NCBI GenBank assembly: GCA_028285265.1
Contig: JANQPX010000030.1
Location: forward strand, 761,793 to 825,792
Length of the DNA: 64,000 bases
Direction: 5' to 3'
From: Geminicoccaceae bacterium
Lineage (GTDB): Bacteria > Pseudomonadota > Alphaproteobacteria > Geminicoccales > Geminicoccaceae
Shown here: positions 14,506 through 60,555 of the stretch, piece after piece
Layout of the letters: each line of letters opens with the position of its first letter
How positions within the stretch are numbered: position 1 is the first letter of the stretch
Translations under genes and position numbers: made by a program
Notes under the pieces: model-generated
Seen by the model: only the letters and a program-made list of their open reading frames with translations
Databases searched by the model: none
Told to the model about the DNA's origin: nothing

Positions 14506-14514
14506 CGGATACCT

Positions 14515-16484: not shown

Positions 16485-16492
16485 ATGTTCTC

Positions 16493-17944: not shown

Positions 17945-18798
17945 TAGTTCGATTCCTCAATATTTACAGTTTCAGCCTCGCTGCCTCGCAGCACTAGTAG
18001 CCTGTTGGTTGGATGCTTCCCTGACCTTAAAACGGTCGAAACATCCCTGTCCCAGGTCGGGACATAGTCCGCCGGAACGGATGCCACGGCATCTTCATCA
18101 TCTCGCGCGAGGCTGCGGAGGCTTAGGGAGAGCTTCCCAAGCTCAGTGACTAAGGCGACGCTCTCAGCCTGCCGCGGAGAGACCTCAAGTGTTGCCGTGC
18201 GAGCCTTTTCATGATGCTTACCTCGTTGGGGATCGTCGCCAGTTTCTACCCCCATGGCGATAATTCTAATGTTGGGAAGAACGGTCTCGCTGACCCGTCG
18301 GGTCGTATCGCCGTCAAGCGTCTGTGTTAAAATCAAGTCGACGCGATCGCCTGGAAAGATAAGGCCAGAATTGCCTGAAGTTGCGTTGATTGGCACGGAA
18401 ACGGCACGCATGCCTGGTGACAGGACGGCAGCGAGAAAGCCCCGGTCACCTGGCTTTACGACGCTGGCCGTTGTGATCGGCTGACCGGCAAAGAGGCCTC
18501 GCCGCACAACAGAACCAACGATGTCATCTTTCTTCGTGCTCTGTTTCACAATGTAGTTGTCCGGAATATCGTCACTCGGCCAACGCTGCCACCGGATATC
18601 TTGTGGTTTAATAAAGTGCCCTGAAGGAACATTGATTTCTGCAACGAGTACTTCGCTCGTGTCTTCTTCGACTTCTTTTGGTGCTTGGATAATCGTGACA
18701 GGTCTTTGCTGATTGCTGATCCAACTTTGGGCATACATAGCTGTTACGCCAGCTACGACGAAAGCAAGAAGCAAGACAAGAATGCGGCGCGGACCCAT
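17944..18798 (-). CDS. cpaB: Pilus assembly protein CpaB/RcpC
   Basis: SAF domain-like VAEINVPSGHFIKPQDIRWQRWP...GDRVDLILTQ; between cpaC and the prepilin peptidase. Confidence 0.9.
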   Translation of the reverse strand: MGPRRILVLLLAFVVAGVTAMYAQSWISNQQRPVTIIQAPKEVEEDTSEVLVAEINVPSGHFIKPQDIRWQRWPSDDIPDNYIVKQSTKKDDIVGSVVRRGLFAGQPITTASVVKPGDRGFLAAVLSPGMRAVSVPINATSGNSGLIFPGDRVDLILTQTLDGDTTRRVSETVLPNIRIIAMGVETGDDPQRGKHHEKARTATLEVSPRQAESVALVTELGKLSLSLRSLARDDEDAVASVPADYVPTWDRDVSTVLRSGKHPTNRLLVLRGSEAETVNIEESN

Positions 18799-18809
18799 GG
18801 TGGGGCTCC

Positions 18810-19361
18810 CTAAAGTTGCTGCAACGCGTAAATGATGGCAAACCCGCCGGCGGCGATCGCGACGCCGTAGGGAAGAGACCCAGCAGTTTCGGATTGGGTC
18901 AGATGACTAGACGGGGGACTTGAAGCCGTCGCCGTCAGGTCACAAAACTTGTTTCGGATAAAGCCGCAAATTGGAGCGTGAAACCAATCGAGTTGAGGCT
19001 TTGGAATCTGTCGAGTGATGAGTGTGAAGATTGCTAGACCACCGCCTGCAAGGCTCGTCACAAGCAAGAAGAGTGCGATATGGTCGGGGCCAGCCCAGAG
19101 GGCTAGACCGGACATCAGCTTGACGTCACCGCCACCTAGGGCGTGGAAACTGAACGCTATGAAACCGGCACCGAACACCAGGCCGGCGACGATGCAGGCG
19201 CTAAGCCAGTCAATGGGGGTCGGGCTGACGATGACAAATATACCGTAGAGGACAGCAACGGCCGAGGTGAGCCAGTTCGGCAAACGGCGATACTCGATAT
19301 CGGTCAATGAACCTGCAACAAGAAGGCCGGCCAGGGCTGACAGACTGAGCGTGGTTAGCAT
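18810..19361 (-). CDS. cpaA: Prepilin peptidase CpaA/TadV
   Basis: SLTDIEYRRLPNWLT and GGGDVKLMSGLALWAG aspartyl protease motifs. Confidence 0.92.
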   Translation of the reverse strand: MLTTLSLSALAGLLVAGSLTDIEYRRLPNWLTSAVAVLYGIFVIVSPTPIDWLSACIVAGLVFGAGFIAFSFHALGGGDVKLMSGLALWAGPDHIALFLLVTSLAGGGLAIFTLITRQIPKPQLDWFHAPICGFIRNKFCDLTATASSPPSSHLTQSETAGSLPYGVAIAAGGFAIIYALQQL

Positions 19362-20841: not shown

Positions 20842-22425
20842 TTGACTGTGAAGGAGCAGGTGATGGCGGATCTCAATGGGCGCCGGCGGGGTGGTAGGTC
20901 TGCGCGACGAGCGGAACGCGCAAAGCCACTTGCAGACACGATTAGGCCTGTTTGGCCTGGTTTAGAGGGCGGGCGCTACAAGCCGCTGGCCGACGTTGAC
21001 ATCCCAAAAATTCACCATGCGGCCCTTGACGTGCTCGAACAAGTTGGTTTCGCCGACGCTATTCCTTCCTGCGTTGAGACGACCACAGCGAAGGGAGCGT
21101 TCATCAATGAATATGGCCGTCTCTGCTTCCCACGTGCTTTGGTTGAAGACACAATCGCCAAAGCCGCGCGCCGCTTCCCCTTGGTGGGGCAGGATCCGAA
21201 GCACGATATGGAGCCCTATGGCAAGAGGGTCTATTTTGGCACGGCTGGCGCTGCTGTACATATTGTCGATGCAGCGAGTGGAGGTTATCGCGAGTCGACC
21301 CTCGAAGATCTCTATCGTATCGCGCGTCTGGTCGACAGCTTGGATCACATTCATTTCTTCCAGCGTTCTGTCATCGCGCGTGACATGACGGATCCGCGTG
21401 ATCTTGACATCAACACCTGTTATGCCGCCATCAAGGGCACGTCAAAGCATGTCGGCACAGCGTTTACCGTGCCTCAGCATGTCGAAGAGGCCCTTGCGAT
21501 GCTGCACTGTGTCGCTGGATCTGAGGCAGCCTGGCGCGCGAGACCTTTTGTCTCGATGTCGAATTGCTTTGTCGTGCCACCGATGAAGTTCGCAGCTGAT
21601 GCCTGCCGATGTCTGGAAGTGGGTGTGCAGGGTGGTATGCCTGTTCTGCTACTGGCAGCCGGGCAGGCGGGCGCGACCAGCCCGGCCTCGCTCGTCGGCG
21701 CTGTCGTGCAGCAAATTGCTGAAGTCTTGGGCGGCCTCGTTTATGTGAATTGCGTGAAGCCGGGCGCCCCAGCGATTTTCGGACCTTGGCCATTTGTATC
21801 CGATCTGAGAACCGGGGCAATGTCGGGTGGCTCTGGGGAACAAGCGCTTCTGATGGCGGCTTGTGCACAGATGGCCCATTATTATGACCTGACAGGCGGC
21901 GTCTGCGCTGGCATGACAGACAGCAAGGTCGCCGACGCCCAGTCTGGCTATGAGAAAGGTTACAACTATGCGCTCGTCGGGAATGCAGGTGCAAATCTCA
22001 TCTACGAGGCTGCCGGCATGCATGCCAGCCTACTAGGCTTCTGTTTGGAGAGTCTCGTCATCGACAATGATGCGATTGGCGCTACGCTCCGAACGCTTCG
22101 AGGCTTAGAGCTGAGTGATGAAGCTCTTTCGGTCGAGGTTATCCGTGACGCCTGTATTGGCGGCCCTGGCCATTTTCTCGAGAGCAAACAGACTCTCGGC
22201 CTCATGCAAAGCGCATATGTCTATCCAACGGTCGGAGACAGGACGAGCCCCAAGGAATGGGAGGAACAGGGCTCGACCGACGTGTTACAAAAGGCGATCG
22301 CCAGAACGGCCGATATATTGGCAGCTCATCACCCGAACCATATCAATGCCGACCTAGACCAATCCATCCGTGAACGTTTCCCTATCAAGCTACCATCGAA
22401 CTCTGCGCTGGATGGGACGGCGTGA
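20842..22425 (+). CDS. Trimethylamine methyltransferase (MttB) family protein, continuous ORF without an internal amber codon
   Basis: Family features HHAALDVLEQVGFADAIPSC, RVYFGTAGAAVHIVDA, GGVCAGMTDSKVADAQSGYEKGYN; C-terminal LGLMQSAYVYPTVGDRTSPKEWEEQG. Confidence 0.9.
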   Translation: MTVKEQVMADLNGRRRGGRSARRAERAKPLADTIRPVWPGLEGGRYKPLADVDIPKIHHAALDVLEQVGFADAIPSCVETTTAKGAFINEYGRLCFPRALVEDTIAKAARRFPLVGQDPKHDMEPYGKRVYFGTAGAAVHIVDAASGGYRESTLEDLYRIARLVDSLDHIHFFQRSVIARDMTDPRDLDINTCYAAIKGTSKHVGTAFTVPQHVEEALAMLHCVAGSEAAWRARPFVSMSNCFVVPPMKFAADACRCLEVGVQGGMPVLLLAAGQAGATSPASLVGAVVQQIAEVLGGLVYVNCVKPGAPAIFGPWPFVSDLRTGAMSGGSGEQALLMAACAQMAHYYDLTGGVCAGMTDSKVADAQSGYEKGYNYALVGNAGANLIYEAAGMHASLLGFCLESLVIDNDAIGATLRTLRGLELSDEALSVEVIRDACIGGPGHFLESKQTLGLMQSAYVYPTVGDRTSPKEWEEQGSTDVLQKAIARTADILAAHHPNHINADLDQSIRERFPIKLPSNSALDGTA

Positions 22426-27057: not shown

Positions 27058-29652
27058 CTAAGCGACCTCGACCGTCGTTTCCATTTCTGGAGCTGTGACA
27101 TGCTTGGACGGCTCTTCAGATACGGATGTTGCCGCACGGTCGTTGGCGTCGCTCTCTTTGGTGTTGCCATGGGTTTCATTGTTGAGCTCTTCCAGGCGCC
27201 CTTGGGTTTCGATCACATGACGATCGATGTCCGAGGCAGAATTGGAGGAGCGGTCAGCCAATTCGCGAACTTCGACGGCAACGACGGCGAAGCCTTTGCC
27301 AGCTTCGCCGGCGCGAGCAGCCTCAACTGAAGCGTTGATCGCTAGCAGCTGAGTCTGCTTCGAGATCGCGCCGATATCCGTTGCGATACGGCTGATCTGA
27401 TCGAGCACGGATGCGGTGAATTTTCGCGATTCGTCGAGGGCGGCGCGTTTGGCCGTGACGTCTGATCCATACATGATGACGCTGCCCAGCTCTCCACGAT
27501 AATCGTTGACTGGCTGGAAAGAGGCGCTGAACCAAATTGGCTCTTGTCCCTCTTGAGAAATCTCAATCTCGCGTGAGACGTAGCCACCTTTCAAGATGTT
27601 GTCGACTTCTTGGGCGTTAAGGATCGCGCGTAAGGCCAAATGCTTCAATGAAGACAGCTCATCAGTCTGACTAATGCCGAGAATCTGACGGCCGAAGCTG
27701 TTGATCGAACGCAAACCACCGCCTTCATCCCACTCAAACATGACGTTTGAGGATTCGATCGCAGAGATGCGTGCAGACTGCTGCATGGCTGCCTGCTTTG
27801 TCTCGGTTACGTTGGCCTGAATCGAGACGAAATGTCTGAGCTTACCGGCGCCGTCAAAGACGGGATTGATTGAAAGTGAGATCCAATACGGCTCGCCAGC
27901 TTTGGTGTAGTTTAAGATCTCTTCGTAAAACGGCTCTTGCTCATGGAGCTTTGTGCGGATACGCGCGATTGTTCCCTTATCTGTATGGCGTCCCTGTAGA
28001 AGCTCGCCGGGCTTTCGGCCGATGACCTCCTCGGTGCTATAACCCGTCAGTCGAGTGAAGCCAGCATTGGCATACTCTGTCTTGCCGCTGGGGTCCGCGA
28101 TAATGACGGAGTTGTCGGTTTCATCGGCGACCAATGATAGAAGGCGCATCCGCTCGCGATTGGCGACTTCCTCGGTCACGTCTTTGACAAAGGCGGTATA
28201 GGTAATTTTGCCGTCGATCTCGACCTTGGAGAGTGAGAGCGCGCCGGTGAGGCGATCACCATCGATCCTCTCGATTTCGACCTCACGGCTGGTGCCAACG
28301 ATCTTATCCTGTGCTGTGCGTCGGTTAGCATTGACAAAGCCGTCGTGATTGGACTGCATCCGCTTAGGAACGAGCATCTTCACGTTCTTTCCGACGACGT
28401 CTTCGCGTCGGTATCCCCAGAGACGCTCTGCGGCGGCGTTGAAGAAGGTTATGTTGTTGTGCTCATCGATGGAGACGACGGCGTCGAGGGCCTGTTCAAG
28501 CGTTTGATTGATACTTTCCTGAGCATTTCGCTGTGCGCTGATGTCTTTAACGAAGGCGGTATAGGTGATGCTGTTGCCAGTCTTTACCTTGGAAAGCGCG
28601 AGGTTGACCCAGACGGAAGAGCCGTCTTTACGCACGAGTTCGAGGTCCCGACTGGTACCAACGATTTTGTCTTGTCCTGTCCGGCGATTGGCATTGACCA
28701 GGTCGTCATGGCCGGCTTGAAATTGGCTTGGGACGAGCATGCGCACATTGTTGCCTATGACCTCGGCGCGCTGGTAGCCCCAAAGGTGTTCGGCTGCAGC
28801 GTTAAAGAAGGTTACATTGTTGTGCTCGTCGATGGAGACGACAGCGTCGACCGCCTGCTCCAGGGTTTGGTTAATGCGTTCTTGGGCGTTTCGCTGCTCG
28901 CTGATGTCTTTTACAAAGGCCGTGTAGGTAATGGCGTTGCCGATTTTCACCTTGGACAGCGCAAGGTTGACCCAGACGATAGAACCGTCCCTGCGGACGA
29001 GTTCGAGATCACGGCTGGTGCCGACTATTTTATCCTGTCCCGTCCGTCGGTTAGCGTCGACCAGGCCGTCATGGCCCGCTTGAACCTGGCTAGGGACGAG
29101 CATGCGGACATTGTTGCCCATGACCTCGTCGCTCCTGTATCCCCAAAGACGCTCGGCAGCGGGATTGAAAAAGGTCACGTTATTCGATTCATCAATCGAA
29201 ACGACGGCGTCGACGGCCTGCTCGAGTGTCTGATTGATGCGCTCCCGCGCATCGCGCTCAGAAGAGATATCGCGAACGAACGCGGCGTAGCCGTATGACA
29301 GGCCCATGCGGGTCTTGGAGAGCGCGAGGCTAACCCAAACTGTAGAACCGTCTCGCCGTGTCAGCTCGAGTTCTCGGTTGGTGCCAACAATTTTGTCCTG
29401 CCCAGTGCGTCGATTGGCTTCGACCAATTCATCATGGCCAGCCTGGAACTGGCTTGGAACGAGCATCTTGACGTTTTTGCCAATGACCTCTTGACGTGTA
29501 TATCCCCAGAGCTTTTCCGCCGCGTCGTTAAAGTAGGTGATGCGGTTCCGCGTGTTGATGATCACGACAGCGTCAAGCGCCTGGTCAAGCGTCTTTTTCA
29601 GCATTCGACCAGACGCGCGATGTAAAAGCCAATTTATCATCTTGATATCCAA
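27058..29652 (-). CDS. Multi-PAS sensor protein with short C-terminal methyl-accepting chemotaxis-like signalling region
   Basis: Four near-identical PAS units, two divergent PAS units, then [48 protein letters not shown]. Confidence 0.88.
28147..29598 (-). repeat. Four tandem in-frame PAS-coding repeats, 363 bp (121 aa) each
   Basis: Repeated consensus [31 protein letters not shown]...[48 protein letters not shown]. Confidence 0.92.
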
Positions 29653-30027: not shown

Positions 30028-32202
30028 CTAAGCGACCTCTTCTGTCAGAGGGAAGGCTTTTGGTAGGAGGCGCGTGTTGAAGATCTCGGCGTTGATAGCG
30101 CTTGCAGGTATAGGCTTCGAGATCAAGAAGCCCTGAACGATGTCGCAATCGTGGTTCTGAAGGTAGTTGAGCTGTGCCGTGGTTTCGACGCCCTCGGCGA
30201 CCACTTTGAGATCGAGGTCATGGGTCATCGCGATCAAGGACTGGACGATCGCCCTGCTGCTTTGGGCGAATTCGACGTCCCGGACAAAGGAACGATCGAT
30301 TTTGATAATCGCGCCCGGGAAGGCTCGGAGATGGTTGAGCGACGAGTAGCCTGTGCCGAAGTCGTCGAGTGCGACACGAATGCCGAGTTCGGAAAATGAT
30401 GTAAGAAGACGGTAGGCTTCTGCTGGCTTCTGCAGGATGTCGCTCTCGGTGATCTCGATTTCGAGGAGACGCGGGTCTAAATCGTAACGGGCAAGGGTCC
30501 GACGGACGAATTCCAAAATACCTGCATTTTGAAATTGGCGTGCGGAGAAATTGACGGCGACATGAACCTCTGGATGTCCGGCATCGCGCCAGGCGGCGAG
30601 CTGGGCACAGGTCGTCTCGAGGACCCACTCCCCAATGGGAAGAATCAGGCTGCTTTCCTCGGCGAGTTCGATAAACTCGCCGGGAGCGACGAGACCGAGC
30701 TCAGGATGGTTCCAGCGGAGCAGCGCTTCGAAACCGATCAGACGGCCAGTGCTGAGATTGACTTGTGGCTGGAAGTAGAGCTCGAATTGTTGTTGGCGAA
30801 TCGCGCGACGAAGATTGCGTTCAAGCTCGATCCTATAGGCGGCACGGCGATGCATTTCCGGGGTGTAGAAATGGAAGCTGCCAGAGCGCTGACCCTTGCC
30901 GGCATACATGGCGGTGTCGGCACTCACGATGATCGAGTCGGCGCAATCGGCATCAGTGGGATAATGAGCGATGCCGATGCTAGCGCCGACATCGACGTCG
31001 CAACTGCCGATATTCACAGGTTTGCGCATCTCAGCAAGAATACGCTCGGCGGTATCGGCGAGTGTCGCTTTGTCGTCGACGTCGGTAATGACGATGGTGA
31101 ACTCATCTCCACCAAGACGGGCGACCAGGTCCGAGGGACGCACGCAGTCTTTCAGGCGGCTTGCGATGTCCCGTAGCAGCAAGTCACCGGCAGCATGACC
31201 GTAGGTGTCGTTGACCGCTTTGAAGCGGTTCAAATCAATGAGCATGAGGCCGACATGGCTCTTCTGCCGGTCGGCGATCGCGATGCTTCGGTCCAAGAAC
31301 TCGCGAAAGTGATAGCGGTTGGCGAGTCCCGTGAGTTGATCGATCTGGGCGAGTTCAGCGAGATGCCGCTCGGCTTTCCTGCGTTCTATCGCATAGCGAA
31401 TCGACCGTTCAAGAAGCGGCGCAGTGATCTCGCCTTTGACCAAATAGTCCGTTGCTCCCGCGCGCATCGCTTCGAGATCGATTTCACGATTGCCTTCGCC
31501 GGTGAGAACGATGAAGGGCATGCAACAGCCGAGATGTACGGCTTCACGCACCAGCTCTAGGCCGTTTCGAGCGCCTAAGCGATAGTCGACGATGGCAACG
31601 TCGTGCTGCCCTTCAAGGGCACGCTCCAGCGCAGGCTGCCAGGATGCAATCCACTCCATCTTGAGATGCCGGCCGAAGATGTCAGCTAGTAATGATTTCG
31701 TCAGGAAATAGTCATCCTCGTCGTCCTCAATCAGCAGGACGCGCATGTCTGTAGCTTGGGCCTGCCCTCCAGCCCCTGTCAGCATGCCGACGGAAGGTAG
31801 GTTTTGGCAAGCTTGATCAGTGCAGGTTGACGGGCTGCAAGCATAGCGCAGGACACGACCAAGGCGTTCGGCATCCAAGCCTGATTTGTCCAAGAAGTTC
31901 GCAGCGCCTGCGGCAAGCGCTTGCTGATCGACTCCTGAGTCCTCCGCACCCGTCAAGATGATCATTGGCAATGTGCAGCCGATCGCCTTTAACCGGCGCA
32001 CAAATTCGACGCCGGACTCGCTACCGATGCAAAAATCGACAAGGCAGGCCTGAACGTCAGCATCAAGCAGTGTCTTGAGCGCGGTGTCATAGTCGGAGGC
32101 GCGGATCAGGTTAACGTCGAGATCTTGGATTTCGACCATGAGCTCTTGGACCAGCGCATAGTCGTCGTCGTCGTCTTCGACGAGAAGGACAGTAAGCTTC
32201 AT
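30028..32202 (-). CDS. Dual-receiver (REC-REC) GGDEF-EAL protein
   Basis: Two receiver domains (CLVDFCIGSESG and AIVDYRLGARNG), RLGGDEFTIV, EALLRWNHPELGLVAPGEFI, DDFGTGYSSLNHLR. Start set at MKLTVLLVEDD. Confidence 0.94.
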   Translation of the reverse strand: MKLTVLLVEDDDDDYALVQELMVEIQDLDVNLIRASDYDTALKTLLDADVQACLVDFCIGSESGVEFVRRLKAIGCTLPMIILTGAEDSGVDQQALAAGAANFLDKSGLDAERLGRVLRYACSPSTCTDQACQNLPSVGMLTGAGGQAQATDMRVLLIEDDEDDYFLTKSLLADIFGRHLKMEWIASWQPALERALEGQHDVAIVDYRLGARNGLELVREAVHLGCCMPFIVLTGEGNREIDLEAMRAGATDYLVKGEITAPLLERSIRYAIERRKAERHLAELAQIDQLTGLANRYHFREFLDRSIAIADRQKSHVGLMLIDLNRFKAVNDTYGHAAGDLLLRDIASRLKDCVRPSDLVARLGGDEFTIVITDVDDKATLADTAERILAEMRKPVNIGSCDVDVGASIGIAHYPTDADCADSIIVSADTAMYAGKGQRSGSFHFYTPEMHRRAAYRIELERNLRRAIRQQQFELYFQPQVNLSTGRLIGFEALLRWNHPELGLVAPGEFIELAEESSLILPIGEWVLETTCAQLAAWRDAGHPEVHVAVNFSARQFQNAGILEFVRRTLARYDLDPRLLEIEITESDILQKPAEAYRLLTSFSELGIRVALDDFGTGYSSLNHLRAFPGAIIKIDRSFVRDVEFAQSSRAIVQSLIAMTHDLDLKVVAEGVETTAQLNYLQNHDCDIVQGFLISKPIPASAINAEIFNTRLLPKAFPLTEEVA

Positions 32203-32213
32203 CGGTTGACCGA

Positions 32214-32678
32214 TCACACCCGACGCGCCGAGCATTCCGGCGGTAAAGCGACGATTTGAATCCAGTATCGACAAATCACGCGCACGGCGTCGACCAATCC
32301 TTCAAAGCTCACAGGCTTGGTGATGAAGGAGCTGACGCCTAGACCATAGGTGCGAACGATGTCCTCCTCTGCAATTGAGGTAGTTAGGACAATGACCGGG
32401 ATGCGGCACAGCTCTGGATCTTCTTTGATCTCGCGCAGCGCTTCACGGCCGTCCTTTTTGGGCATATTGAGGTCAAGGAGAATGATGCCGGGATAAGCGG
32501 TGTCTTTGAGCTCAGCATAGGGGCCCTCTCTGCGGAGGTAAGCCATAAGCTGTTCGCCGTCCTCTACGAAGGTGATCTTATTGGCGATGCGGTTTTCAAC
32601 AAACGCCTCTTCGATCATCATTCGATCATCGGGATCGTCGTCGGCGACGAGGATAGAGATCGGCCGTTCCGTCATCAT
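32214..32678 (-). CDS. Single-domain response regulator (Rcp1-like)
   Basis: SILVADDDPDDRMMIEEAF, GIILLDLNMPKKDGREALREIK. Confidence 0.94.
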   Translation of the reverse strand: MMTERPISILVADDDPDDRMMIEEAFVENRIANKITFVEDGEQLMAYLRREGPYAELKDTAYPGIILLDLNMPKKDGREALREIKEDPELCRIPVIVLTTSIAEEDIVRTYGLGVSSFITKPVSFEGLVDAVRVICRYWIQIVALPPECSARRV

Positions 32679-34732
32679 CAGGCTCCCGCCGTATCAGTTC
32701 GTGCGTGCCGGATCGGCAGTTCGATGGTGAAGCTGCTGCCCTCACCTGAAACGCTTTTGACGTCGATCAGGCCATGATGCCGTTCAACGATCTTTCGACA
32801 GGTCGCGAGCCCGATCCCTGTGCCTTCAAATTCGGCGCGGCTGTGAAGGCGTTGGAAGATACCGAAGATGCGGTCGGCATACTTCATGTCGAAACCGATT
32901 CCATTGTCGGAGACTTCGATTTGGCAGCAGCGTTGTTTGACATGTTGCCCGAGATCGACCATCTCAGCCCGGATCTGAACCTTTGGCGATTGGTCTGGGT
33001 TATGAAACTTCAAGGCGTTGGAGACGAGATTTTGAAAGAGCTGGTGCATCTGTGTGCGATCAGCGTCGACGACGGGGAGAGGCGCGACCGTAACCTCTCC
33101 TTCAACTTCCTCGATCCTCACTTCCAGATCGGAGACAACGTCCTCTAGAACCTCGTTCAGATCGATCGGTTGGAAAGGTTTGCCTTTGGTGGTGACGCGA
33201 GAGTAGTCGAGGAGGTCATTGATCAGGGCACGCATTCGGACAACAGAATTCTGCATCCGATCGATATACATCTTACCGTCATCACCGAGCTCTGGCTCGT
33301 ATTTGCGCTTCAGACGATCGCCAAAGGCCTCGACCTTTCGCAAGGGTTCTTGAAGATCATGGGACGCAATGGAGGCGAAGGCTTCCAGCTCGCGATTGCT
33401 CCGAGCGAGCGCCGCCTCGCGATCTTTGAGTTCGGTGATGTCGGTATGCAGTACCACCACACCACCGTCGCCCGTGCGGTGTTCATTGATCAGAATCCAG
33501 CGGCCATTTGGCAGGCGCCGCTGGAGCACATGACCGGAAAGATGGTGCTGCTCCATGCGCTCAAAGGCGTGCTGATCGAAGGTTTTGTCGTCTGGTACTG
33601 GGTCGATGCCTACTTTAATTTCAGCACGAAGCAGGTTCTCATAGCTCGTGCCATACGCAATGGTATCGCCAAGTTCAGGGTAGAGCTCGAGAAAACGACT
33701 GTTCCAGGTGACCAACCGGTCATTCGAATCGAAGAGGGCAAAGGCTTGCGGTATGCTTTCAATAATCGCGTCTCGTGTCCGCGTGCTTGCCGCGGCGGCT
33801 TCGATTTCCGCTTCCTTGATCCGCGTTTGATCGAGGATGACACCGTTCCATACGACCGACCCGTCAGCTTCGCGGTGGGGCCTTGCGATGGCATGGGTGA
33901 ACTTTCGGGTTCCATCGCGCGTAATGATCGTCGCCTCAACGTCCCAAAGCTGAAGCGCGCGCGATGCCGACAATAGACGGTCGCGAAAGGTGGCGTAGTA
34001 GTCAGGCCCGTGGCAGTCGAACAGGGCTTGCGGATCAGAAAGGATCTCTTCGGGCGACACGCCAAACAGATCTTCAGCGGCTTCACTGATGTAAGTGTAG
34101 CCGATGTCGCCGTTCGGCCGGACGACACGTTGATAGACAACCCCTGGAATGTTCTTGGCGAGCGCCGAGAAACGCTCTTTGGCGGAAAGAAGCGCACGGG
34201 TTCGTCTCGTGGAGTCGATCGCGTAGCTGGTGAGAAGCTTGAGACTGTTCAGTGCCTTGGGATCAACCACCGGGAGCACGCCTGGCGACGATTCGACAAC
34301 GATGAGATCGCCCAGCGGTTCACCCGCGTGGTTATGGACACGGTGCTGTCCGCCCAGATTGAGCTGGGTTTGCTCTAAGCAGGCACTGATCGCCTTGGGA
34401 TCACCGGCAGCGCTGCTTTCCAGGAGCTCCTGAAGGACCAATCCCAGGGATGAGGATGTTGAGGCGCCGGACCAGATACCGCCATCGTCAGGATCAAGAG
34501 CGACGATCAAGCAAGCAGCCCCCCCATAAAGGCTGCTCAGGGCGACAGCGATGACTTTGAGGCATTCAGCAAGCTCGGCATCACGAGCAATCAAGCTGAG
34601 AACCTGGTCATGGGTATCGAGCAAGCAACCGACAACGGTCGCGCCATCCATGTCCAGATTGGCCGGCACATCCGTTTCGGCATGAGGTTCGTTTTGGGCC
34701 AGCGCGACGTCCATTAGCAATCCCATGACCAA
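32678..34732 (-). CDS. Soluble PAS-PAS histidine kinase with possible N-terminal GAF-like region
   Basis: Two PAS regions, H-box FASIASHDLQEPLRKVEAFGDRL, N-box FQNLVSNALKFHNP, GTGIGLATCRKIVERH. Confidence 0.9.
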   Translation of the reverse strand: MVMGLLMDVALAQNEPHAETDVPANLDMDGATVVGCLLDTHDQVLSLIARDAELAECLKVIAVALSSLYGGAACLIVALDPDDGGIWSGASTSSSLGLVLQELLESSAAGDPKAISACLEQTQLNLGGQHRVHNHAGEPLGDLIVVESSPGVLPVVDPKALNSLKLLTSYAIDSTRRTRALLSAKERFSALAKNIPGVVYQRVVRPNGDIGYTYISEAAEDLFGVSPEEILSDPQALFDCHGPDYYATFRDRLLSASRALQLWDVEATIITRDGTRKFTHAIARPHREADGSVVWNGVILDQTRIKEAEIEAAAASTRTRDAIIESIPQAFALFDSNDRLVTWNSRFLELYPELGDTIAYGTSYENLLRAEIKVGIDPVPDDKTFDQHAFERMEQHHLSGHVLQRRLPNGRWILINEHRTGDGGVVVLHTDITELKDREAALARSNRELEAFASIASHDLQEPLRKVEAFGDRLKRKYEPELGDDGKMYIDRMQNSVVRMRALINDLLDYSRVTTKGKPFQPIDLNEVLEDVVSDLEVRIEEVEGEVTVAPLPVVDADRTQMHQLFQNLVSNALKFHNPDQSPKVQIRAEMVDLGQHVKQRCCQIEVSDNGIGFDMKYADRIFGIFQRLHSRAEFEGTGIGLATCRKIVERHHGLIDVKSVSGEGSSFTIELPIRHARTDTAGA

Positions 34733-34851
34733 GTCGTGGCTTTCAAGGTCGCTCGGCAGGCGTTGCCGATCGCGAAGCCGATGAGCTCTCTTCTTGCAAG
34801 GCCCGCGGCTTATGGTGATGAATATTCGAACGAAAGTTTTAAAATTAAGTT

Positions 34852-34880
34852 AGACGAAGTCATTCATTCGTCTGTTTTTT
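34852..34880 (+). terminator. Terminator-like hairpin in the divergent intergenic region
   Basis: AGACGAA-GTCATTCA-TTCGTCT followed by G-TTTTTT (34875-34880). Confidence 0.5.
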
Positions 34881-35115
34881 GAATAACTTTGTAAAAATTT
34901 TACTAGAAAGGGCAAACATCTAATATTTATTTCTTTAACAAGCGTTATCCAAATTTTAGCGCATTCTTAACTTGCTGACTGGTAATGATGCGAGCCGAGG
35001 GACTGAGATTGTCCCGAGTCGCTTGTGATCGTCTTGTGTCTTTAAGAACGCCAAGACTTGGCTCGCGAATTGTCGCTACAGCTACCCAGTTGATCATGAC
35101 GTAGGTGATTGAGTC

Positions 35116-36336
35116 ATGGAATTACTAGAAACGCGTCGCGAAGCGCCCGAGGCCCTAATGGGGGCCGAACAGGATCGTGTCGTGCGGCGGCAGACCCGTG
35201 TGGCTGAGCTTCAAGAGCAGGTTGCCCGACTTGCCGAAACGATGCGGATCGCGGTGGTGTTTGGTGGCAATAAGCACGTCCCTGGCGCTGTCATCAATCC
35301 GACCTTCAATCCACGTCATTGGAAAAGCTATGAAGCGGTCGCAGAAGATATTGCGGCTGCCCTTCGTCGTATCGGATTTCGCTATGTCATTACGATTCCC
35401 GATGACATGAGCTTAGGTCACCAGCTTCGTCGCCATCAAATCCACTTTGCTTGGCTTAATACCGGCGGCGTCCAAGGACTGGGGTCCGTCAGCCATGCGG
35501 CGGCGATGCTTGAAATGTTCGGCATTCCGTATGTCGGTCATAGTCCACTCAGCGCTGCGACCATGGACAATAAACAGGTCATGAAGCGGGATCTGATGAT
35601 TGCCGGGGTTCCCACGGCACCGTTTATGGTGTGGCAGCCCAACAGGGGGCCTTTAACTCCGGGGCAAAATCCCCGCCTTGAGAAGGCGTTCGGTGCTTAT
35701 GACGGGCCTTTCATCGTTAAGCCAATTTCTGGCCGGGCGTCGCGCTTCGTCGTCGCTGTTGACCACGCCGATGGCTTAGCGGCGACAGCTGAGGGCATAT
35801 ATAACGCAACCCAAAATCCGGTTCTTATCGAGAGTTATCTGTCCGGCCGCGAGTTTTGTGTTGCTGTCTGCGGTGAGGTGATTGCGCGTCAGGGGCAGCT
35901 TGAACGGCTTGGGCATCCCTTTGCTTTCGCTGTCATCGAGCGCGTGCTCGATCAGGATGAGCGTGTGTTTACGTCCATGGACCATCGTCCGATCACCACC
36001 GACAGAGTCCGCTGTCTCGACCGTAAGCGCGAGTCGGATCTCTACGATAAGCTGGTAACGATGGCTCGCAGTATCTACGAGGAATTTGAGCTTGAAACAC
36101 TTATCCGGCTCGATGTGCGTGCCGACGATAAGGGCGATCTTTATGTCCTTGAGGCCAACCCGAAGCCGGATCTTGCCGCAGCGGCGGAGAATCGAACAAG
36201 CATCGTCGGTGCTGGTCTAAAAAACGAAGGCATGAGCTACGACGATCTCATCCTCTCCCTGATTGCCGATCGTATCGATGTGCTGTTCAGCCAGCGCCGC
36301 GCGGTGGTCAGTCATCTCGATTCTTTGTTGAACTAG
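35116..36336 (+). CDS. D-alanine--D-alanine ligase-like ATP-grasp protein
   Basis: MRIAVVFGG N-terminus-like, GIPYVGHSPLSAATMDNKQVMKRDLMIAGVPTAPF, LIRLDVRADDKGDLYVLEANPKPDL. Confidence 0.83.
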   Translation: MELLETRREAPEALMGAEQDRVVRRQTRVAELQEQVARLAETMRIAVVFGGNKHVPGAVINPTFNPRHWKSYEAVAEDIAAALRRIGFRYVITIPDDMSLGHQLRRHQIHFAWLNTGGVQGLGSVSHAAAMLEMFGIPYVGHSPLSAATMDNKQVMKRDLMIAGVPTAPFMVWQPNRGPLTPGQNPRLEKAFGAYDGPFIVKPISGRASRFVVAVDHADGLAATAEGIYNATQNPVLIESYLSGREFCVAVCGEVIARQGQLERLGHPFAFAVIERVLDQDERVFTSMDHRPITTDRVRCLDRKRESDLYDKLVTMARSIYEEFELETLIRLDVRADDKGDLYVLEANPKPDLAAAAENRTSIVGAGLKNEGMSYDDLILSLIADRIDVLFSQRRAVVSHLDSLLN

Positions 36337-36371
36337 CCATGGTCTTGTCTTTCGCATGTTGACGACACGAC

Positions 36372-39300
36372 ATGGTTGAGGGCGGCTCGCTTCGTCGGCG
36401 ATTGATCGACGGCGTCACCATGACGCTCGTCGCCGGCCTTTCCTTTGTTCTTCTGATTTATGTCGGGTTCGGCGAGGCTAATCGAAGCTACGAGCAGTTT
36501 TACGTCGGCAAGCTGACGGCGCAAGCTAAGGTCTTGGTCAACGCAATTGAGGGGTTTTTGAAGCGTGACCTGCCGTTAGATCAATATGTTGGCTTTCGCC
36601 CGCGAGCGGAACGACTCTTAAACTCTGATAGAACTGTGGCAACGATCGCTGTCTTCGACAGCAATAACCGTTTGGTTTTCACCAGCGGTGATTCAGCAAT
36701 CGGTCTCTTGCCTGAGTCTCAGGCGAATGATGCCATGGTCCAGGAGGAGTTGAGCGTCCGTAGCGACAGCGCCATCCTCCAAGTCGTTCTGCCGCTTAAA
36801 AACAACCGCGAGATCGTAGGCAGCATCGCGATTGCTATGCCACATGATCTGATCTCCCAGCAGGTAGAAGAGCGGTTCCTTACCTTGATTCCCATCGGAT
36901 TGGGACTGTCCATCGCATTTGGGTTCTTTGTGAGTGGTGCAAGTGGTTGGCTTGTGCGCCAGCGATGGCCGGTTCTTCAGATGGCCTATGCCGGGCTCTT
37001 TCTCCTCGTTGCCGCTTTGGTCATTGGCAATCTTGTGTCGCTATATGCCAAAGGCACGCAGATCAAGACCAAGGCTCTCGCCGATTCGCTCGGCCAACGG
37101 ATGACCGAAGTGGTCGGATTCAATCTGGATATCGAACAGATCCCTGGCCTGGACCGAGCTTTTTCGGAATATCGACGGCTCAACCCGGACATTGCTGCCG
37201 CAGCGTTAGTCATCGACGACACGATACTCATCCACACCGATTCGTTCATGGTTGGTCGGTCATGGGAAAGTGATCGCGGCGTCTATGAATATTTGGTCAA
37301 TATCAGCCCGAGCGGCAGTGAGCGCCGAGTCAATATCGCGGTTACTCTTCCGCAGGAAATCGTCTATCGACAGACACTGCGCAGTGTTAAGAATTTCGCT
37401 GCATTGTTTATTGCGTCGGCCTTTCTGGCCAGTCTCTTTCTTCAATTGGCTGGATCGGTCAACCAACGGGATGGACCCAAGCGTAAACGACCAGATGACG
37501 TCGAGGCAGCCGATACAACTGCCGTCGATGACGAGCAATGCTTGAAACTGGTGAAGCCAGTGTTCTACGTCACGATGTGCGTAGAGCATTTGTCGTATGC
37601 GTTTCTTGCCAGCTATATCGCTGAACTTATTGGTGCGTCCGGCCTCTCCGGCGGTCTGACATCGGCGATATTTGCCGTCTATTATCTCGGGTTTGCGCTA
37701 ACCCTGGTGCCAGCCGGGCATCTTGCGCAACAATTTAGCCCGAAGCCTTTGATGGTCTGCGGGCTTTTCCTTTCTGCCGGTTCCTTCCTACTCTTGATGG
37801 CGGGCGATATCGGGCTCCTCATCGTTGCGCGCGCCGCGGCCGGCATCGGTCAGGCGATGCTCTTTATCGGTGTTCAATCGTTTATCCTCAGCGTTGCTGC
37901 TCCGGAGCGAAAGACGCAAGGCGCCGCCATCATTGTCTATGGTTTTCAGGGCGGCATGATTTCCGGCATGGCGATTGGCTCATTGCTCGTTGGTTATATC
38001 GGAGCAGAAGGAGTCTTTGCCGTCGGCGCGGTCACAACCTCGCTAACGCTGGTCTATGCTGCCTTTCTCGTGCCGACCATCGCTAAGGCGTCGCCTGTCG
38101 AACCGGTGGGTTTTGTTGGTAGCGTCAAGACCCTCGGCCGGAATGTGGCCATGGCTGCAGGGAATTGGCAGCTTTTGCAGGCAATCGCGTTGATCGGCAT
38201 TCCTGCGAAAGCGGTCCTGACGGGCATTGTCGTTTTTGCCATTCCGCTCCTTATGAGCCAAGAAGGTTATCGCCAAGAGGATATCGGGCAAATCCTGATG
38301 CTGTATGCCGCGGCGGTGGTCGTCGCGAATGAAATGATCTCCCGCTGGGTCGATCGTACCGGAAAGTCGCAGCAGGTTCTCCTTTTTGGCGCGCTGCTAA
38401 GTGGCTTTGGACTTTGGCTGATCGGGTATCTGGGGCTCGGCTGGCTCGAGCATGTTCCCTACGGCGGGTCCGTCGAGGTGATCAGCATCATCATCGGCGT
38501 GATTGTCCTTGGCCTCGCTCATGGTCTGATCAATGCTCCAATCGTAAGTCACGTTGCCGGTCTGCCGGTCGGTGAGCAAATTGGTGTGGGTGCGCTGACG
38601 GCTACCTATCGGTTCTTGGAACGCATTGGCCATGTCGCAGGACCGTTGCTGGTGGGGCAGATGTTCCTGCTGATTGGCGAGGACGCCATGGTTCTTGCCT
38701 GGTCCGGCGGCGCTATCGCAGTCTTCGGGCTCATCTATTTCTTATTTGGCCGGGGCACAGCGACCAAGCCCAAGCCCAAGCGACAAAAGCCGGTTGCCGT
38801 GACGTATCGCGATCACATCGACGACTTCATCGGCCTTCAACTTGATCGTCAGCATCAGGCGATCATGTTGACGCTTTCATCCGCCAATCCGTCGGTTGAT
38901 GCCGATCCAGCCCAGGCTGTCTTACTTCAACATATGTTCGCCAAGGGCTCGGACGTCGGTAGGGCTGAGCTAGCCGCCTATCATGCCATCACGTCGGATG
39001 CCTTGGATGTATCGGCGGTCATTGCCAACCGCCGTCGCGCGTTGCGCTTCAAGAACTTTCTTGATGATGTCCATGGCGAGGTGCCGACTGAGCAGCCCCT
39101 GCTTGCAATCGTTTATTCGCCGAGGCTCGATCCCAGCCGCTCAGATCTCGCAAGTTGGCTCAGCCGCCGACCCGGCAGCCGATTGGTGATCATGAAGGAT
39201 ATCGACGCTTGGTTGGACCAGATGAGGGGTTGGCTCGCTCTGCTCAATTTGGACGCGAGCCTAGGTGATCAGCGCCAAGGTGCAGAAGCGCTGATGGCCG

Positions 39301-39440
39301 AGCTGAAAGCCCATTTGGACCAGGGTGGTGGGGAGCTCGCGTGGATTGGAAAGATCAGGCTAGGCGATACTGATAGGCTTCAGGAATCCAGGGAAGTCGA
39401 GCCTGCCGCTAAGCCTAACCTTCGAGCCGTCGGCGAATGA
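36372..39440 (+). CDS. Fusion protein: N-terminal membrane sensor region (two Cache-like extracytoplasmic segments), MFS transporter core and C-terminal cytosolic domain
   Basis: 1022 aa. TM plus extracytoplasmic segments (VATIAVFDSNNRLVFTSGDSAIG; IAAAALVIDDTILIHTDSFMVGRSW), then MFS core (LSYAFLASYIAELIGASGLSGGLTSAIFAVYYLGFALTLVPAGHLAQQFSPKPLM), then about 200 soluble residues. Confidence 0.78.
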   Translation: MVEGGSLRRRLIDGVTMTLVAGLSFVLLIYVGFGEANRSYEQFYVGKLTAQAKVLVNAIEGFLKRDLPLDQYVGFRPRAERLLNSDRTVATIAVFDSNNRLVFTSGDSAIGLLPESQANDAMVQEELSVRSDSAILQVVLPLKNNREIVGSIAIAMPHDLISQQVEERFLTLIPIGLGLSIAFGFFVSGASGWLVRQRWPVLQMAYAGLFLLVAALVIGNLVSLYAKGTQIKTKALADSLGQRMTEVVGFNLDIEQIPGLDRAFSEYRRLNPDIAAAALVIDDTILIHTDSFMVGRSWESDRGVYEYLVNISPSGSERRVNIAVTLPQEIVYRQTLRSVKNFAALFIASAFLASLFLQLAGSVNQRDGPKRKRPDDVEAADTTAVDDEQCLKLVKPVFYVTMCVEHLSYAFLASYIAELIGASGLSGGLTSAIFAVYYLGFALTLVPAGHLAQQFSPKPLMVCGLFLSAGSFLLLMAGDIGLLIVARAAAGIGQAMLFIGVQSFILSVAAPERKTQGAAIIVYGFQGGMISGMAIGSLLVGYIGAEGVFAVGAVTTSLTLVYAAFLVPTIAKASPVEPVGFVGSVKTLGRNVAMAAGNWQLLQAIALIGIPAKAVLTGIVVFAIPLLMSQEGYRQEDIGQILMLYAAAVVVANEMISRWVDRTGKSQQVLLFGALLSGFGLWLIGYLGLGWLEHVPYGGSVEVISIIIGVIVLGLAHGLINAPIVSHVAGLPVGEQIGVGALTATYRFLERIGHVAGPLLVGQMFLLIGEDAMVLAWSGGAIAVFGLIYFLFGRGTATKPKPKRQKPVAVTYRDHIDDFIGLQLDRQHQAIMLTLSSANPSVDADPAQAVLLQHMFAKGSDVGRAELAAYHAITSDALDVSAVIANRRRALRFKNFLDDVHGEVPTEQPLLAIVYSPRLDPSRSDLASWLSRRPGSRLVIMKDIDAWLDQMRGWLALLNLDASLGDQRQGAEALMAELKAHLDQGGGELAWIGKIRLGDTDRLQESREVEPAAKPNLRAVGE

Positions 39441-39489
39441 AGCCGGCTGTGATCAATGGCGTTTATCATCGCAAAGGAGATGTTTGCCT

Positions 39490-40710
39490 ATGAACCGACT
39501 TACCCATCGAGGTTCAGGGATGTTGGGCCGACTAGCCTGCGGGGCTGTTCTGGTCGCTGCCCTGATCGCGTCATCTGCTAGCCGTACCGAAGCCGTCCCA
39601 GCCTATGACGGTTGGTTCCGTCATAGCGAGAATATTACTGGCGCTTGGACCTTTTCCGAAGTAGCGGGTGATCCCGATCAAGTGAAGATCAAGAGCACGG
39701 TATCCGGGCCTGGAGATCCGAAGCAGGTCTTGGTTCTCTATCCAAAGCGTTCTTCCGCTTATGATATTGCAATCAGTAAGATTCTCGACGTGTTCGCTAG
39801 CAAGAATACGCCGTTAGCGTTTCACGTCATCAATTTCAGGAACAATGATGGGCGAGGTGCTGCCGTCCTCGATCTTGTGGAAGAGAACAACTACGATTTG
39901 ATCTTCTCCATGGGCTCCCAGTCTACGGCTTGGCTCTATCAGTATTACCGTGATGGCGATACGCCGGTCGTCACGGTTTGTTCGAAGGATCCCGTCAAAC
40001 TTGGCCATATCAACGACTACGAGAACGGCTCAGGAACCAACTTTGCCTTTACGTCTCTGAACATGCCAACCGAAGTTCAGCTCGCTTATCTCATGGACTT
40101 TATGCCGGGCGTAAAGAACCTTGGCATTCTTGTGGCGCGCAACAATATTAGTGCCGTCCGCACGCAGGCAAAGCCGATGCAAGAAGCCGTCGAAGCGTTA
40201 GGCGTGAACACGGTCTATCTGGCGGTCCAGGATCCTGCGAAAGCCAAGGAGGAATTGCCGGGACTCATCGAGGATGCTCTTGCCGAAATGCGCAAGACCG
40301 ACCCTTCACTCGATAACTCCATGTTTTGGATCACGGGATCGACCAGCGTGTTTCGAGAAATCAGCACGATCAATCGCCATGCCGGTCCTGTGCCCGTGCT
40401 AAGTGCCGTTCCAGAGGTGGTCCAAGCCGGTGATGAGAGTGCGGTCGTTTCGATCGGCATCAGCTTTGAAAGTAACGGTTACCTTGCCGCAGTCTACGGC
40501 TATGACGTGATCATGGGGCATGCCAAGGCAGGTGATCTCAAAGTTGGTATCGTTTCACCTCCAGACATCGCGATTAATTTCCGCCGCGCACGCGCGATCG
40601 GCGTTGAGGTGCCTTTCAGCTTCTTCGAGAGCGCCAACTATGTCTACGATTACGAGGGCAAGGCCGTCCGTCTGCGAGGCCGCGATCTCTCCCGAAACGC
40701 TGGAAGCTGA
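39490..40710 (+). CDS. ABC transporter substrate-binding protein (ABC_sub_bind-like)
   Basis: Signal peptide; VLVLYPKRSSAYDIAISKI, YDLIFSMGSQSTAW, MDFMPGVKNLGILVARNN, C-terminal INFRRARAIGVEVPFSFFESA. Confidence 0.75.
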   Translation: MNRLTHRGSGMLGRLACGAVLVAALIASSASRTEAVPAYDGWFRHSENITGAWTFSEVAGDPDQVKIKSTVSGPGDPKQVLVLYPKRSSAYDIAISKILDVFASKNTPLAFHVINFRNNDGRGAAVLDLVEENNYDLIFSMGSQSTAWLYQYYRDGDTPVVTVCSKDPVKLGHINDYENGSGTNFAFTSLNMPTEVQLAYLMDFMPGVKNLGILVARNNISAVRTQAKPMQEAVEALGVNTVYLAVQDPAKAKEELPGLIEDALAEMRKTDPSLDNSMFWITGSTSVFREISTINRHAGPVPVLSAVPEVVQAGDESAVVSIGISFESNGYLAAVYGYDVIMGHAKAGDLKVGIVSPPDIAINFRRARAIGVEVPFSFFESANYVYDYEGKAVRLRGRDLSRNAGS

Positions 40711-57356: not shown

Positions 57357-57431
57357 GCGGGTGTAGCTCAGTGGTAGAGCAGTAGCTTCCCAAGCTACGT
57401 GTCGTGAGTTCGATTCTCATCACCCGCTCCA
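57357..57431 (+). tRNA. tRNA-Gly (anticodon CCC)
   Basis: GCGGGTG acceptor, anticodon stem-loop GTAGC-TTCCCAA-GCTAC, encoded CCA. Confidence 0.95.
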
Positions 57432-57475
57432 AATTCCTCTTTCTATCCAGACACTTAATCATTTTTGCCTCTCGC

Positions 57476-58561
57476 CTATTTTACAAGTTGGACACGCGGC
57501 GGGCACGAGCCCTCCGGATTTAGGATTTCATTCATATACGAATCGATGGCTCTAACCGTATCTCTTTGGTACCCCACATCGTACTTCGCATAGATCTCCG
57601 TCGTCGATTCGCTCGACGAGTGGCCCATGATGCCAGCGACGTCCCACGGCTGCACTCGACGCCTTCTTAATTCGGTCGCCATCGTGCGTCGAAGTGTCAT
57701 GGGTACAACGCCTTCGCCTATGTCAGCACGCTGCACACATTTGTTCCAAGCCGTCGTGATGCGCTCCAGCGGCCTGCCTCGAAACTGCACCAGGTGGCCG
57801 GCTGGCGCTTGCTCGATCAGAGGATAGAGTGTCTCAGTGATCGGCACGATCGGACGTCGCTTCTTCGTTTGCTCTCTCTCTGGCGGATTCAGATAGATGA
57901 TTCGGTGCTCGAGGTCACACTGAAATCGCGACAGCTCCAAGAGCGCGCCTGGCCGCGACAGCGTGTTGAGACCGAGCATGATGAACATGAAGAGATGAGG
58001 CGTCGGTCGCGATGCTTCGACGAGCGCTCTGACTTCTGGCAGTTCCAAAGTGCGCTGCGCTGGGTTTCGCTCCTTGACCTTGATGATCTTTGGCGGTGAT
58101 TGGATCTCTTGGCGCTCATGAGCTCGATTCAATGCTGCCATGCCAGATGCCATGATCTTTTTCACGTAGCTACTGGAGAGCTCCTTGGAGCGCAGCCATT
58201 CGACGAATTCTTCTTGGCGGGCGATCGTCAGCTGGCTTATGAGCGCTTCCCGCCAGAACTCTGCCCAATAGGCGAGCTGGATCTTCTGAGCACGTGCGCT
58301 TGCTATGTGCTTTGCGTGACCTTCCCAATATCGAACAAGAACTGTGGCCAATGGTGTCTCTGAGATGGACTCTTGGTCCATCGCCCCATTTTTGGTAACC
58401 CATTCAGCTAGCTTCTGCTGGGCTTCCCGAAGGTCTCCAGTGCTAAGCGACTCGCGTCGTGTCTGTCCAGATCCTGGATCGTACCACGTCCGGTACCACG
58501 ACGGTCTCCCTTTACGCTTCGAGAGCCAGAAGTCCCCGATTTGGCTTTGCTTCCTCGGCAT
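57476..58561 (-). CDS. Tyrosine recombinase/integrase
   Basis: C-terminal catalytic region LSRPGALLEL...PMTLRRTMATELRRR...GHSSSESTTEIYAKY, 45 bp from the tRNA-Gly 3' end. Confidence 0.92.
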   Translation of the reverse strand: MPRKQSQIGDFWLSKRKGRPSWYRTWYDPGSGQTRRESLSTGDLREAQQKLAEWVTKNGAMDQESISETPLATVLVRYWEGHAKHIASARAQKIQLAYWAEFWREALISQLTIARQEEFVEWLRSKELSSSYVKKIMASGMAALNRAHERQEIQSPPKIIKVKERNPAQRTLELPEVRALVEASRPTPHLFMFIMLGLNTLSRPGALLELSRFQCDLEHRIIYLNPPEREQTKKRRPIVPITETLYPLIEQAPAGHLVQFRGRPLERITTAWNKCVQRADIGEGVVPMTLRRTMATELRRRRVQPWDVAGIMGHSSSESTTEIYAKYDVGYQRDTVRAIDSYMNEILNPEGSCPPRVQLVK

Positions 58562-58785
58562 TGCACTTCACTCGCATCAAGAAAATCTTGAATGTGCCGG
58601 CCACGATAGGCCACGCGCCGTTCAGAAAACTTCAGATACGCAATGCGACCTTCTCTTCGCGCGCGTCGAAGTAGCGGGAGCGAGATCATTAAGATCTGAG
58701 CCGCTTCATGCTCGTTGTAGAGCTTGTCCAGCTGGATGATGTTCGAAACGTGGGCAGGCTCTATCACCCCTATGCCCTCTCTCAT
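58408..58785 (-). CDS. Excisionase-like HTH protein
   Basis: LYNEHEAAQILMISLPLLRRARREGRIAYLKFSERRVAYRGRHIQDFLD is an HTH_17/AlpA-type motif; 3' end overlaps the integrase 5' end. Confidence 0.78.
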   Translation of the reverse strand: MREGIGVIEPAHVSNIIQLDKLYNEHEAAQILMISLPLLRRARREGRIAYLKFSERRVAYRGRHIQDFLDASEVQCRGSKAKSGTSGSRSVKGDRRGTGRGTIQDLDRHDASRLALETFGKPSRS

Positions 58786-58812
58786 TAGCCACTCCGTCGC
58801 GAAAGAGCTTGT

Positions 58813-59367
58813 TTAGATACCGAAACGCACGCCAAGCCGGAGGCTGTGCTGAAAGACTTCGTCGTCAGTGTCGAAGCCGGGCAGCCAGGTGACGCGATAG
58901 TGTGGTACGATCGCCACGGCGTCGTTGATGTCGAAGTTTAGACCGAGCTCGCCGTGAGCGACGAAGTTCGTCTCATCATCTTCGACGTCTTGCCCGAGGA
59001 TTTCCGTCGAGACCTCCTGATAGACGAAACCGGCCCCGCCACCGGCATAGAAGTATCGAGCGAAGTCTCGATAGATCCCGCCTTGAACGGCCACGTGGTA
59101 GTAGTCCAGATCGTCACTGCCGGGGTCGTTCTCGAGGTCAATCACGGCTGCTGATAGGCTGACGTCGAGTTCCACGCGGACAATCTGAAGATCGGCCCCG
59201 AACCTCCCTCCGAGCATGGCCCCCGGTCCAATCTCAATGCCGACGTCGTCGATCGAGTTGTCGGGATACAAGTCTACGCCGATGTCGCCTTGCAGATAGA
59301 AGTCTTGTGCTGCCGCTGGCGTGGTAATGACGAGGGCAAAAATTGCCGTGGCAAAAATTGCTTTCAT
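58813..59367 (-). CDS. Outer-membrane beta-barrel protein
   Basis: Signal peptide MKAIFATAIFALVITTPAAAQ, alternating beta-strand pattern, C-terminal HSLRLGVRFGI. Confidence 0.75.
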   Translation of the reverse strand: MKAIFATAIFALVITTPAAAQDFYLQGDIGVDLYPDNSIDDVGIEIGPGAMLGGRFGADLQIVRVELDVSLSAAVIDLENDPGSDDLDYYHVAVQGGIYRDFARYFYAGGGAGFVYQEVSTEILGQDVEDDETNFVAHGELGLNFDINDAVAIVPHYRVTWLPGFDTDDEVFQHSLRLGVRFGI

Positions 59368-59427
59368 TGAACCATTTCCTCCGATGGCGTGGTTGGCCGA
59401 GGTTGCCCTCGACAAGGGGCTGGCTGC

Positions 59428-59784: not shown

Positions 59785-59964
59785 ATTGGCTTTCGCCCTC
59801 AGAGCCTCTCTAAGCGCCTCGAATGACCGCTCCGCCGCCGTCATGCCAGAACGATCGACGTCGGCGCTCCTGCCCATGCTCGCGGCCGAGGAAATCATGT
59901 TTAGCATCGCCGTCGGGGTGAAACTTTCAGCGGTCAGCGAGAGCTCCTCACTTGAGAGGGCATC

Positions 59965-60432: not shown

Positions 60433-60555
60433 AGCGGCGCTGGGAGAACCTCACAGACGGGTACGAGCGTTGCAGGGCTGGCAGTAATGCGACCGGAAGC
60501 GGACGCTCGGAGCGGGCGGCTAAAGACCTAGTCTGACCCCGACCGGACCTTTCTC

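Follow-up and report, generated by a model that had tools for sequence, protein, structure and literature searches.

The window analysed here, a stretch of 64,000 nucleotides from a Geminicoccaceae bacterium, comes from an 8.5-Mb draft genome, where it occupies the end of an 826-kb contig. An initial annotation had singled out three co-directional, closely spaced genes within it as a candidate undescribed module. The three open reading frames were indeed found there, all on the plus strand, with the expected domains and with gaps of 35 nt and 43-49 nt:

35116-36336, plus strand: ATP-grasp ligase gene, 406 aa (Pfam and NCBIfam models, family alignment)
36372-39440, plus strand: sensor-MFS fusion gene, 1022 aa, starting 35 nt after the ligase gene (open reading frame, MFS_1 match, homologues)
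39490-40710, plus strand (open reading frame from a TTG at 39484): binding-protein gene, probably of the TrpX / ABC_sub_bind type (NCBIfam models, PDB structures, relatives)
34733-35115, unstranded: A+T-rich divergent intergenic region upstream of the ligase gene (sequence)

For the binding-protein gene, the ATG at 39490, preceded by AAAGGAG at 39473-39479, is a likelier start than the TTG at 39484, and the gap is then 49 nt. The source genome contains a single copy each of the full sensor-MFS protein and the binding protein. The intergenic region is presumed to be the shared promoter region of two divergent operons. No sigma-70-like site was found within 34733-35115, promoter-like sites there did not rise above those of shuffled sequences, and a four-way alignment of divergent regions revealed no clear conservation of a common promoter motif.

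Several other features of the window were recorded in passing. A Tad/Flp-pilus-like operon with a secretin, a T2SSE ATPase and a T2SSF-type gene occupies 11076-19361 (minus strand). The MttB-family methyltransferase reading frame at 20842-22425 (plus strand) lacks an in-frame amber stop and is probably a non-pyrrolysine MttB homologue; an Rfam PYLIS_3 match lies inside it (21913-22012, plus strand). A chemoreceptor-like protein with an MCP signalling domain and five PAS domains is encoded at 27058-29652 (minus strand). Finally, the features at 57357-63693 suggest an integrated element that reaches the contig end: a tRNA-Gly, after it a phage-type integrase (57476-58561, minus strand), and then genes for a pentapeptide-repeat and a DUF4062/TPR protein.

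The nearest solved structures to the ATP-grasp protein are D-Ala-D-Ala ligases, and the protein passes the Pfam model Dala_Dala_lig_C (52 vs 24), but it falls far below the D-Ala-D-Ala ligase family cut-offs (NF002378, 82.2 bits vs 243; TIGR01205, 76.2 vs 245.65). Its putative Mg-ATP residues are K202, E239, E246, R331, D333, E346 and N348, with the signature N348-PKPDL-353; K202, E239, E246, D333, E346 and N348 are invariant in 16 family members, and the ATP/Mg residues are kept in the Vibrio proteins too. The ATP-grasp fold and these residues are shared with DdlB, in which we take the Mg-ATP residues to be K144, E180, E187, D257, E270 and N272. In contrast, the DdlB substrate triad, presumably E15, S150 and Y216, is not kept when mapped by alignment only, the place of S150 being taken by A208. 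The N-terminal loop, GG(N/D)K..PGAVI, is likewise without the Ddl motif, and FTSMD.(R/K)PIT stands in place of the Y216 loop. A separate and much stronger Ddl candidate is present in the source genome, at C62:390720. These features support the view that the ATP-grasp protein is probably not the cell's D-Ala-D-Ala ligase; from the fold, we infer an amide ligase activity. A peptidoglycan role was accordingly rejected as the leading idea, on the residues, the missed family cut-offs and the separate Ddl candidate. Two further observations of the initial annotation were borne out: the family has a conserved N-terminal helical stretch, and the ligase gene lies outside any peptidoglycan cluster, since no peptidoglycan genes were found near the module.

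The protein encoded by the middle gene is divided as follows:

36480-36869, plus strand, residues ~37-166: first extracytoplasmic sensor segment, predicted Cache fold (AF2 model, WalK Cache match, weak NF053592 match)
37050-37376, plus strand, residues ~227-335: second extracytoplasmic sensor segment, Cache-like (AF2 topology; split relatives with single-Cache proteins apart)
37554-38750, plus strand, residues ~395-793: MFS transporter part (MFS_1, E 2.8e-35; invariant residues)
38805-39437, plus strand, residues ~812-1022: C-terminal soluble domain (only in the window's own bacterial family)

Four hydrophobic segments (residues ~15-33, 169-187, 201-219 and 342-360) precede the MFS part, and the protein should therefore contain two extracytoplasmic loops. 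An AF2 model of residues 1-375, built from 17 sequences taken from the window and the sampled genomes, had a pLDDT of 80.9 and placed helix-plus-sheet sensor folds in both loops, in agreement with the sensory domain proposed for the first 350 residues. The first segment was modelled with a pLDDT of ~88 except at residues ~110-130, and the second with a topology of a long helix, a helix and four strands. The best close Foldseek match to this model was the Cache domain of WalK (TM 0.61-0.65 by target length, ~146 columns); many dCache chemoreceptor domains matched with a looser fit, and NF053592 weakly matched residues 6-183. The elements of the Cache topology, a long N-terminal helix and an antiparallel sheet in a loop between two TM helices, are all present in the model. 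As modelled, the Cache fold is thus firm for one domain and assigned by topology for the other. The window protein does not reach the Pfam Cache cut-offs (sCache_4, 14.1 bits vs 22.1), whereas the split relative L031 exceeds that of sCache_3_2 (33.4 bits vs 28.4).

The MFS part that follows is complete, as had been claimed: MFS_1 matches the 12-TM region from residue ~400 onwards with 122.3 bits (cut-off 33.4). Within it R487, G491, G493, G532 and G536 are invariant in 17 relatives; we take R487 to be the motif-B arginine, and the TM5 glycines presumably resemble antiporter motif C. In the alignment, most members lack the motif-A aspartate of loop 2/3. The drug-exporter-type model TIGR00880 scores 35.5 bits, under its cut-off of 131, and a lipoteichoic acid flippase model matches weakly (E 0.021). 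Homologues in other alphaproteobacterial genomes are ~770-1040 aa long, and those outside the window's own family ~800 aa. The C-terminal soluble domain of about 200 aa is present as described, but it is one family's addition and not a general part of the module: it occurs in four other genomes of the window's family (L003, L032, L033 and L035), is poorly conserved, and is absent from the ~800-aa proteins elsewhere. Its AF2 model, from five sequences, reached a pLDDT of 67.5, and Foldseek gave no match to it below E 0.9.

The third protein has a hydrophobic, signal-peptide-like N-terminus, and its nearest solved structures are TrpX-type (PDB 6hni, 3lft and 3lkv). It scores 48.3 bits with the TrpX NCBIfam model (cut-off 390) and lies below the ABC_sub_bind cut-off of 25.9, which its relatives L021 (34.9) and L037 (46.9) exceed. 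By these matches it is probably a TrpX / ABC_sub_bind-type protein, predicted to be secreted. TrpX-type proteins are associated with aromatic amino acid binding. The module protein probably shares the sequence family of these proteins and presumably their fold, but differs from them in being linked to an MFS protein: no ABC permease or ATPase gene was found in the window operon or in any module neighbourhood read, as the initial annotation had noted for this locus.

A survey of gene neighbourhoods, with genes in other genomes called by our own script based on open reading frames and codon scores, found the order ATP-grasp, sensor-MFS, binding protein kept in 14 other alphaproteobacterial genomes (G002, G029, G030, G020, G124, G178, G225, G111, G398, G101, G096, G233, G461 and G680; the module is spread over two contigs in G020 and the ligase truncated at a contig end in G030). 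It recurs on three Vibrio plasmids, so that the neighbourhood extends well beyond this strain, to several alphaproteobacterial families and to Vibrio, and the unusual combination is not due to chance. The genomes searched are a sample: among 385 alphaproteobacterial genomes, 10 carry a ligase of this family and 12 a sensor-MFS, and the two occur together in 9 (hypergeometric P 4.7e-15, shared ancestry ignored). Moreover, the protein distances of the three families correlate (Mantel r 0.83-0.90), and at one site two genomes of the same genus, L025 and L107, are distinguished by just the three genes. The three of 12 sensor-MFS genomes that have no ligase carry distant variants with other enzymes nearby, either TauD and a homocitrate-synthase-like gene or a pantoate-transferase-like gene, and in two of the three also SpoIIE phosphatases. 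At L029 (7734-14940) and L030 (5316-13551), TauD dioxygenase and homocitrate-synthase-like genes replace the ligase, and L030 also has a SpoIIE phosphatase. Conversely, G155 has two ligase copies (L065 and L066) with no MFS seen; downstream of each copy the contig breaks off, so an MFS gene may have been missed. Neither a description of the module nor a characterised homologous cluster was found in the open-access full-text literature, type VI papers included, and to that extent the module is undescribed, as proposed.

Plasmids of Vibrio gigantis, V. tubiashii and V. crassostreae carry the three genes, with a second binding-protein gene after them, inside a type VI secretion cluster, where tssH lies on one side and the FHA gene/tssJ on the other (L037 7759-12946, L038 7768-12949 and L039 7760-13045). 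Two other type VI clusters, L070 and L072, contain the sensor-MFS and binding-protein genes without a ligase. In Aureimonas and Azospirillum a different amide ligase, of the glutamate-cysteine ligase family, or a different ATP-grasp gene adjoins the same kind of MFS and binding protein; on the Aureimonas plasmid pAU20a (L042 6492-16555) the genes encode a sensor-MFS, a glutamate-cysteine-ligase-family protein, a binding protein, SpoIIE, DUF3365 and a response regulator. In split relatives a Cache-type protein of ~260 aa is encoded by a separate gene, followed by a sensor-MFS gene for ~700 aa. The culturable Azospirillum brasilense Sp7 has a split variant on its plasmid ABSP7_p1, at about 597.7-603.6 kb. 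A split relative from Azospirillum has a HAMP domain between Cache and MFS (37.1 bits vs a cut-off of 25), and two others have weaker HAMP matches; HAMP was not detected in the fused sensor-MFS form. This predicted HAMP link is the strongest hint that the sensor may act on the transporter.

The three-gene unit stands as described, but the module is larger than had been claimed, since a PAS domain encoded in the divergent operon accompanies it in most genomes. The genes of this operon are:

32678-34732, minus strand: histidine kinase with PAS_3-PAS_7 and a GAF-like N-terminus, divergent from the three genes (Pfam)
33770-34192, minus strand: module-linked PAS_3 domain of this kinase (identity with PAS domains that adjoin the module in other genomes)
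32214-32678, minus strand: CheY-like response regulator, 154 aa (reading frame with receiver-type sequence)
30028-32274, minus strand: third gene of the operon, protein with two Response_reg domains, GGDEF and EAL (Pfam)

By its sequence the kinase is cytosolic. Proteins encoded beside the module in eight other genomes resemble the N-terminal half of this kinase, and the PAS domains of these neighbours, fused to histidine kinase or GGDEF-EAL outputs, share 55-77% identity with its PAS_3 domain. The position of the PAS gene varies among module genomes (divergent, convergent or downstream, with a smallest gap of 8 nt). The CheY-like regulator has a homologue in the same place in L022, L024 and L108 (272 bits), and the place of the third gene is taken by RR-HK proteins in L022 and L024 and by an RR-type protein in L108. 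No second match to the module-linked PAS was found in the source genome. Over the 385 genomes its scores fall into two groups, with eight genomes at or above 218 bits and the next at 116, and seven of the eight carry the module (P 1.2e-12, shared ancestry ignored). The exceptions lie on both sides: L107 keeps the PAS gene without the three genes, and in the module genomes L027 and L028 the neighbouring signalling gene is not the PAS gene but encodes a dCache kinase or a dCache adenylate cyclase. On this distribution, the PAS protein appears to be a fourth partner in most module genomes.

Two known systems resemble parts of this arrangement. In the Vibrio AI-2 receptor LuxP-LuxQ, AI-2 reaches tandem PDC/Cache-type sensor domains through the periplasmic protein LuxP (PMC8534201). 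Likewise, all module loci have a binding-protein gene beside a gene for a tandem Cache membrane protein. However, the output of LuxQ is a histidine kinase and that of the module an MFS transporter, and each of the module's two Cache domains has a loop of its own, with a pair of TM helices separating the loops. Judged by its anatomy, the module may work like LuxP-LuxQ with a transporter replacing the kinase. The second system is RsbQ-RsbP, in which an enzyme gene neighbours a conserved PAS domain whose fused output, a phosphatase, kinase or diguanylate cyclase, differs among bacteria (PMC3183031). The module also combines an enzyme gene with a conserved PAS, having histidine kinase or GGDEF-EAL outputs, but its enzyme belongs to the ATP-grasp proteins, not to the alpha/beta hydrolases, and it includes a transporter and a binding protein as well. 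Because these defining features fail, the module is a member of neither system. Transport and signal transduction are also joined in the KsAmt5 kinase fusion and the BceAB-BceS flux sensor (PMC8534201); there the transporter controls a kinase, whereas in the module the sensor domains sit on the transporter.

The results presented above suggest, tentatively and with some doubt, a model whereby the module makes, moves and senses a small amide- or dipeptide-like molecule. The ATP-grasp enzyme would join an amino group to a carboxylate, using ATP, and its product would cross the inner membrane through the MFS part, most likely from the inside out. The molecule would then be captured by the secreted binding protein, which would dock on the two Cache segments of the MFS protein, and docking would alter transport activity as a form of feedback. 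The cytosolic PAS protein, in some genomes a histidine kinase and in others a c-di-GMP enzyme, would read the same or a linked signal and set gene expression or c-di-GMP. The outward direction is suggested only because the MFS part resembles the drug-exporter type (TIGR00880, below cut-off) and has TM5 glycines like those of antiporter motif C. Gene conservation, co-inheritance, the predicted sensor fold, the intact ATP/Mg site, the HAMP link of a relative and the PAS partner all favour this circuit, as do the other amide-ligase or ATP-grasp genes found in Aureimonas and Azospirillum and the lack of an ABC permease in the neighbourhoods read. Against it, synthesis is not always part of the system, because the type VI relatives L070 and L072 have the sensor-MFS and binding protein without the ligase; the lone PAS gene of L107, the other signalling genes of L027 and L028, and the undetected HAMP in the fused form also count against it.

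The same parts could be read differently. The binding protein might hand an external amino-acid-like compound to the Cache-MFS protein for ligand-gated import, after which the ATP-grasp enzyme would conjugate it inside the cell, with no self-made signal. The TrpX-type relatives of the binding protein, the amino-acid chemoreceptors that make up most of the dCache matches of the model, and the ligase-free variants all fit such an importer; however, almost every fused alphaproteobacterial sensor-MFS is accompanied by the ligase and the MFS part is closer to exporters than to importers, and we consider import unlikely. It is less likely still that the MFS part is transport-dead and serves as a UhpC-like receptor, through which the signal from the Cache segments and binding protein would reach the neighbouring PAS kinase or cyclase. 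Signalling genes do adjoin the module in most genomes, and the motif-A aspartate is missing in most members, but the motif-B arginine and the TM5 glycines never vary among the relatives aligned, which is the pattern of functional transporters, and the PAS partner seems cytosolic and occurs alone in one genome (L107).

An envelope or self-protection function, in which a cell-wall precursor or antibiotic would be modified by the ligase and then flipped or expelled by the MFS part, would draw on the distant relationship to Ddl and the weak flippase match. We regard it as very improbable, given the loss of the Ddl substrate residues, the stronger Ddl candidate elsewhere in the genome and the lack of nearby peptidoglycan genes; it would also leave the binding protein and the sensors unexplained. 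Finally, every domain of the module is common by itself, and the genes might be accidental neighbours with unrelated functions. This is hardly conceivable, being ruled out by the conserved order, the co-occurrence and the correlated distances across families.

The make-move-sense circuit is the reading that we favour. In a bolder form, which we think rather unlikely, the module would define a new class of receptor-gated transporters, in which a secreted binding protein and tandem Cache domains (via HAMP in the split relative) directly switch an MFS transporter within a self-contained chemical communication system, its signal coming from a dedicated ATP-grasp enzyme and being read by the module-linked PAS, and which has been built into Vibrio type VI clusters. 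The usual outputs of sensor domains are kinases, cyclases, phosphatases and chemoreceptors. If correct, the presence of Cache domains (Cache-HAMP in the relative) on an MFS protein with its own binding protein would make transport itself an output of extracytoplasmic signalling. The linked ligase would point to a small molecule, and the PAS proteins and type VI clusters may offer phenotypes, namely c-di-GMP, kinase output and secretion, by which that molecule could be found.
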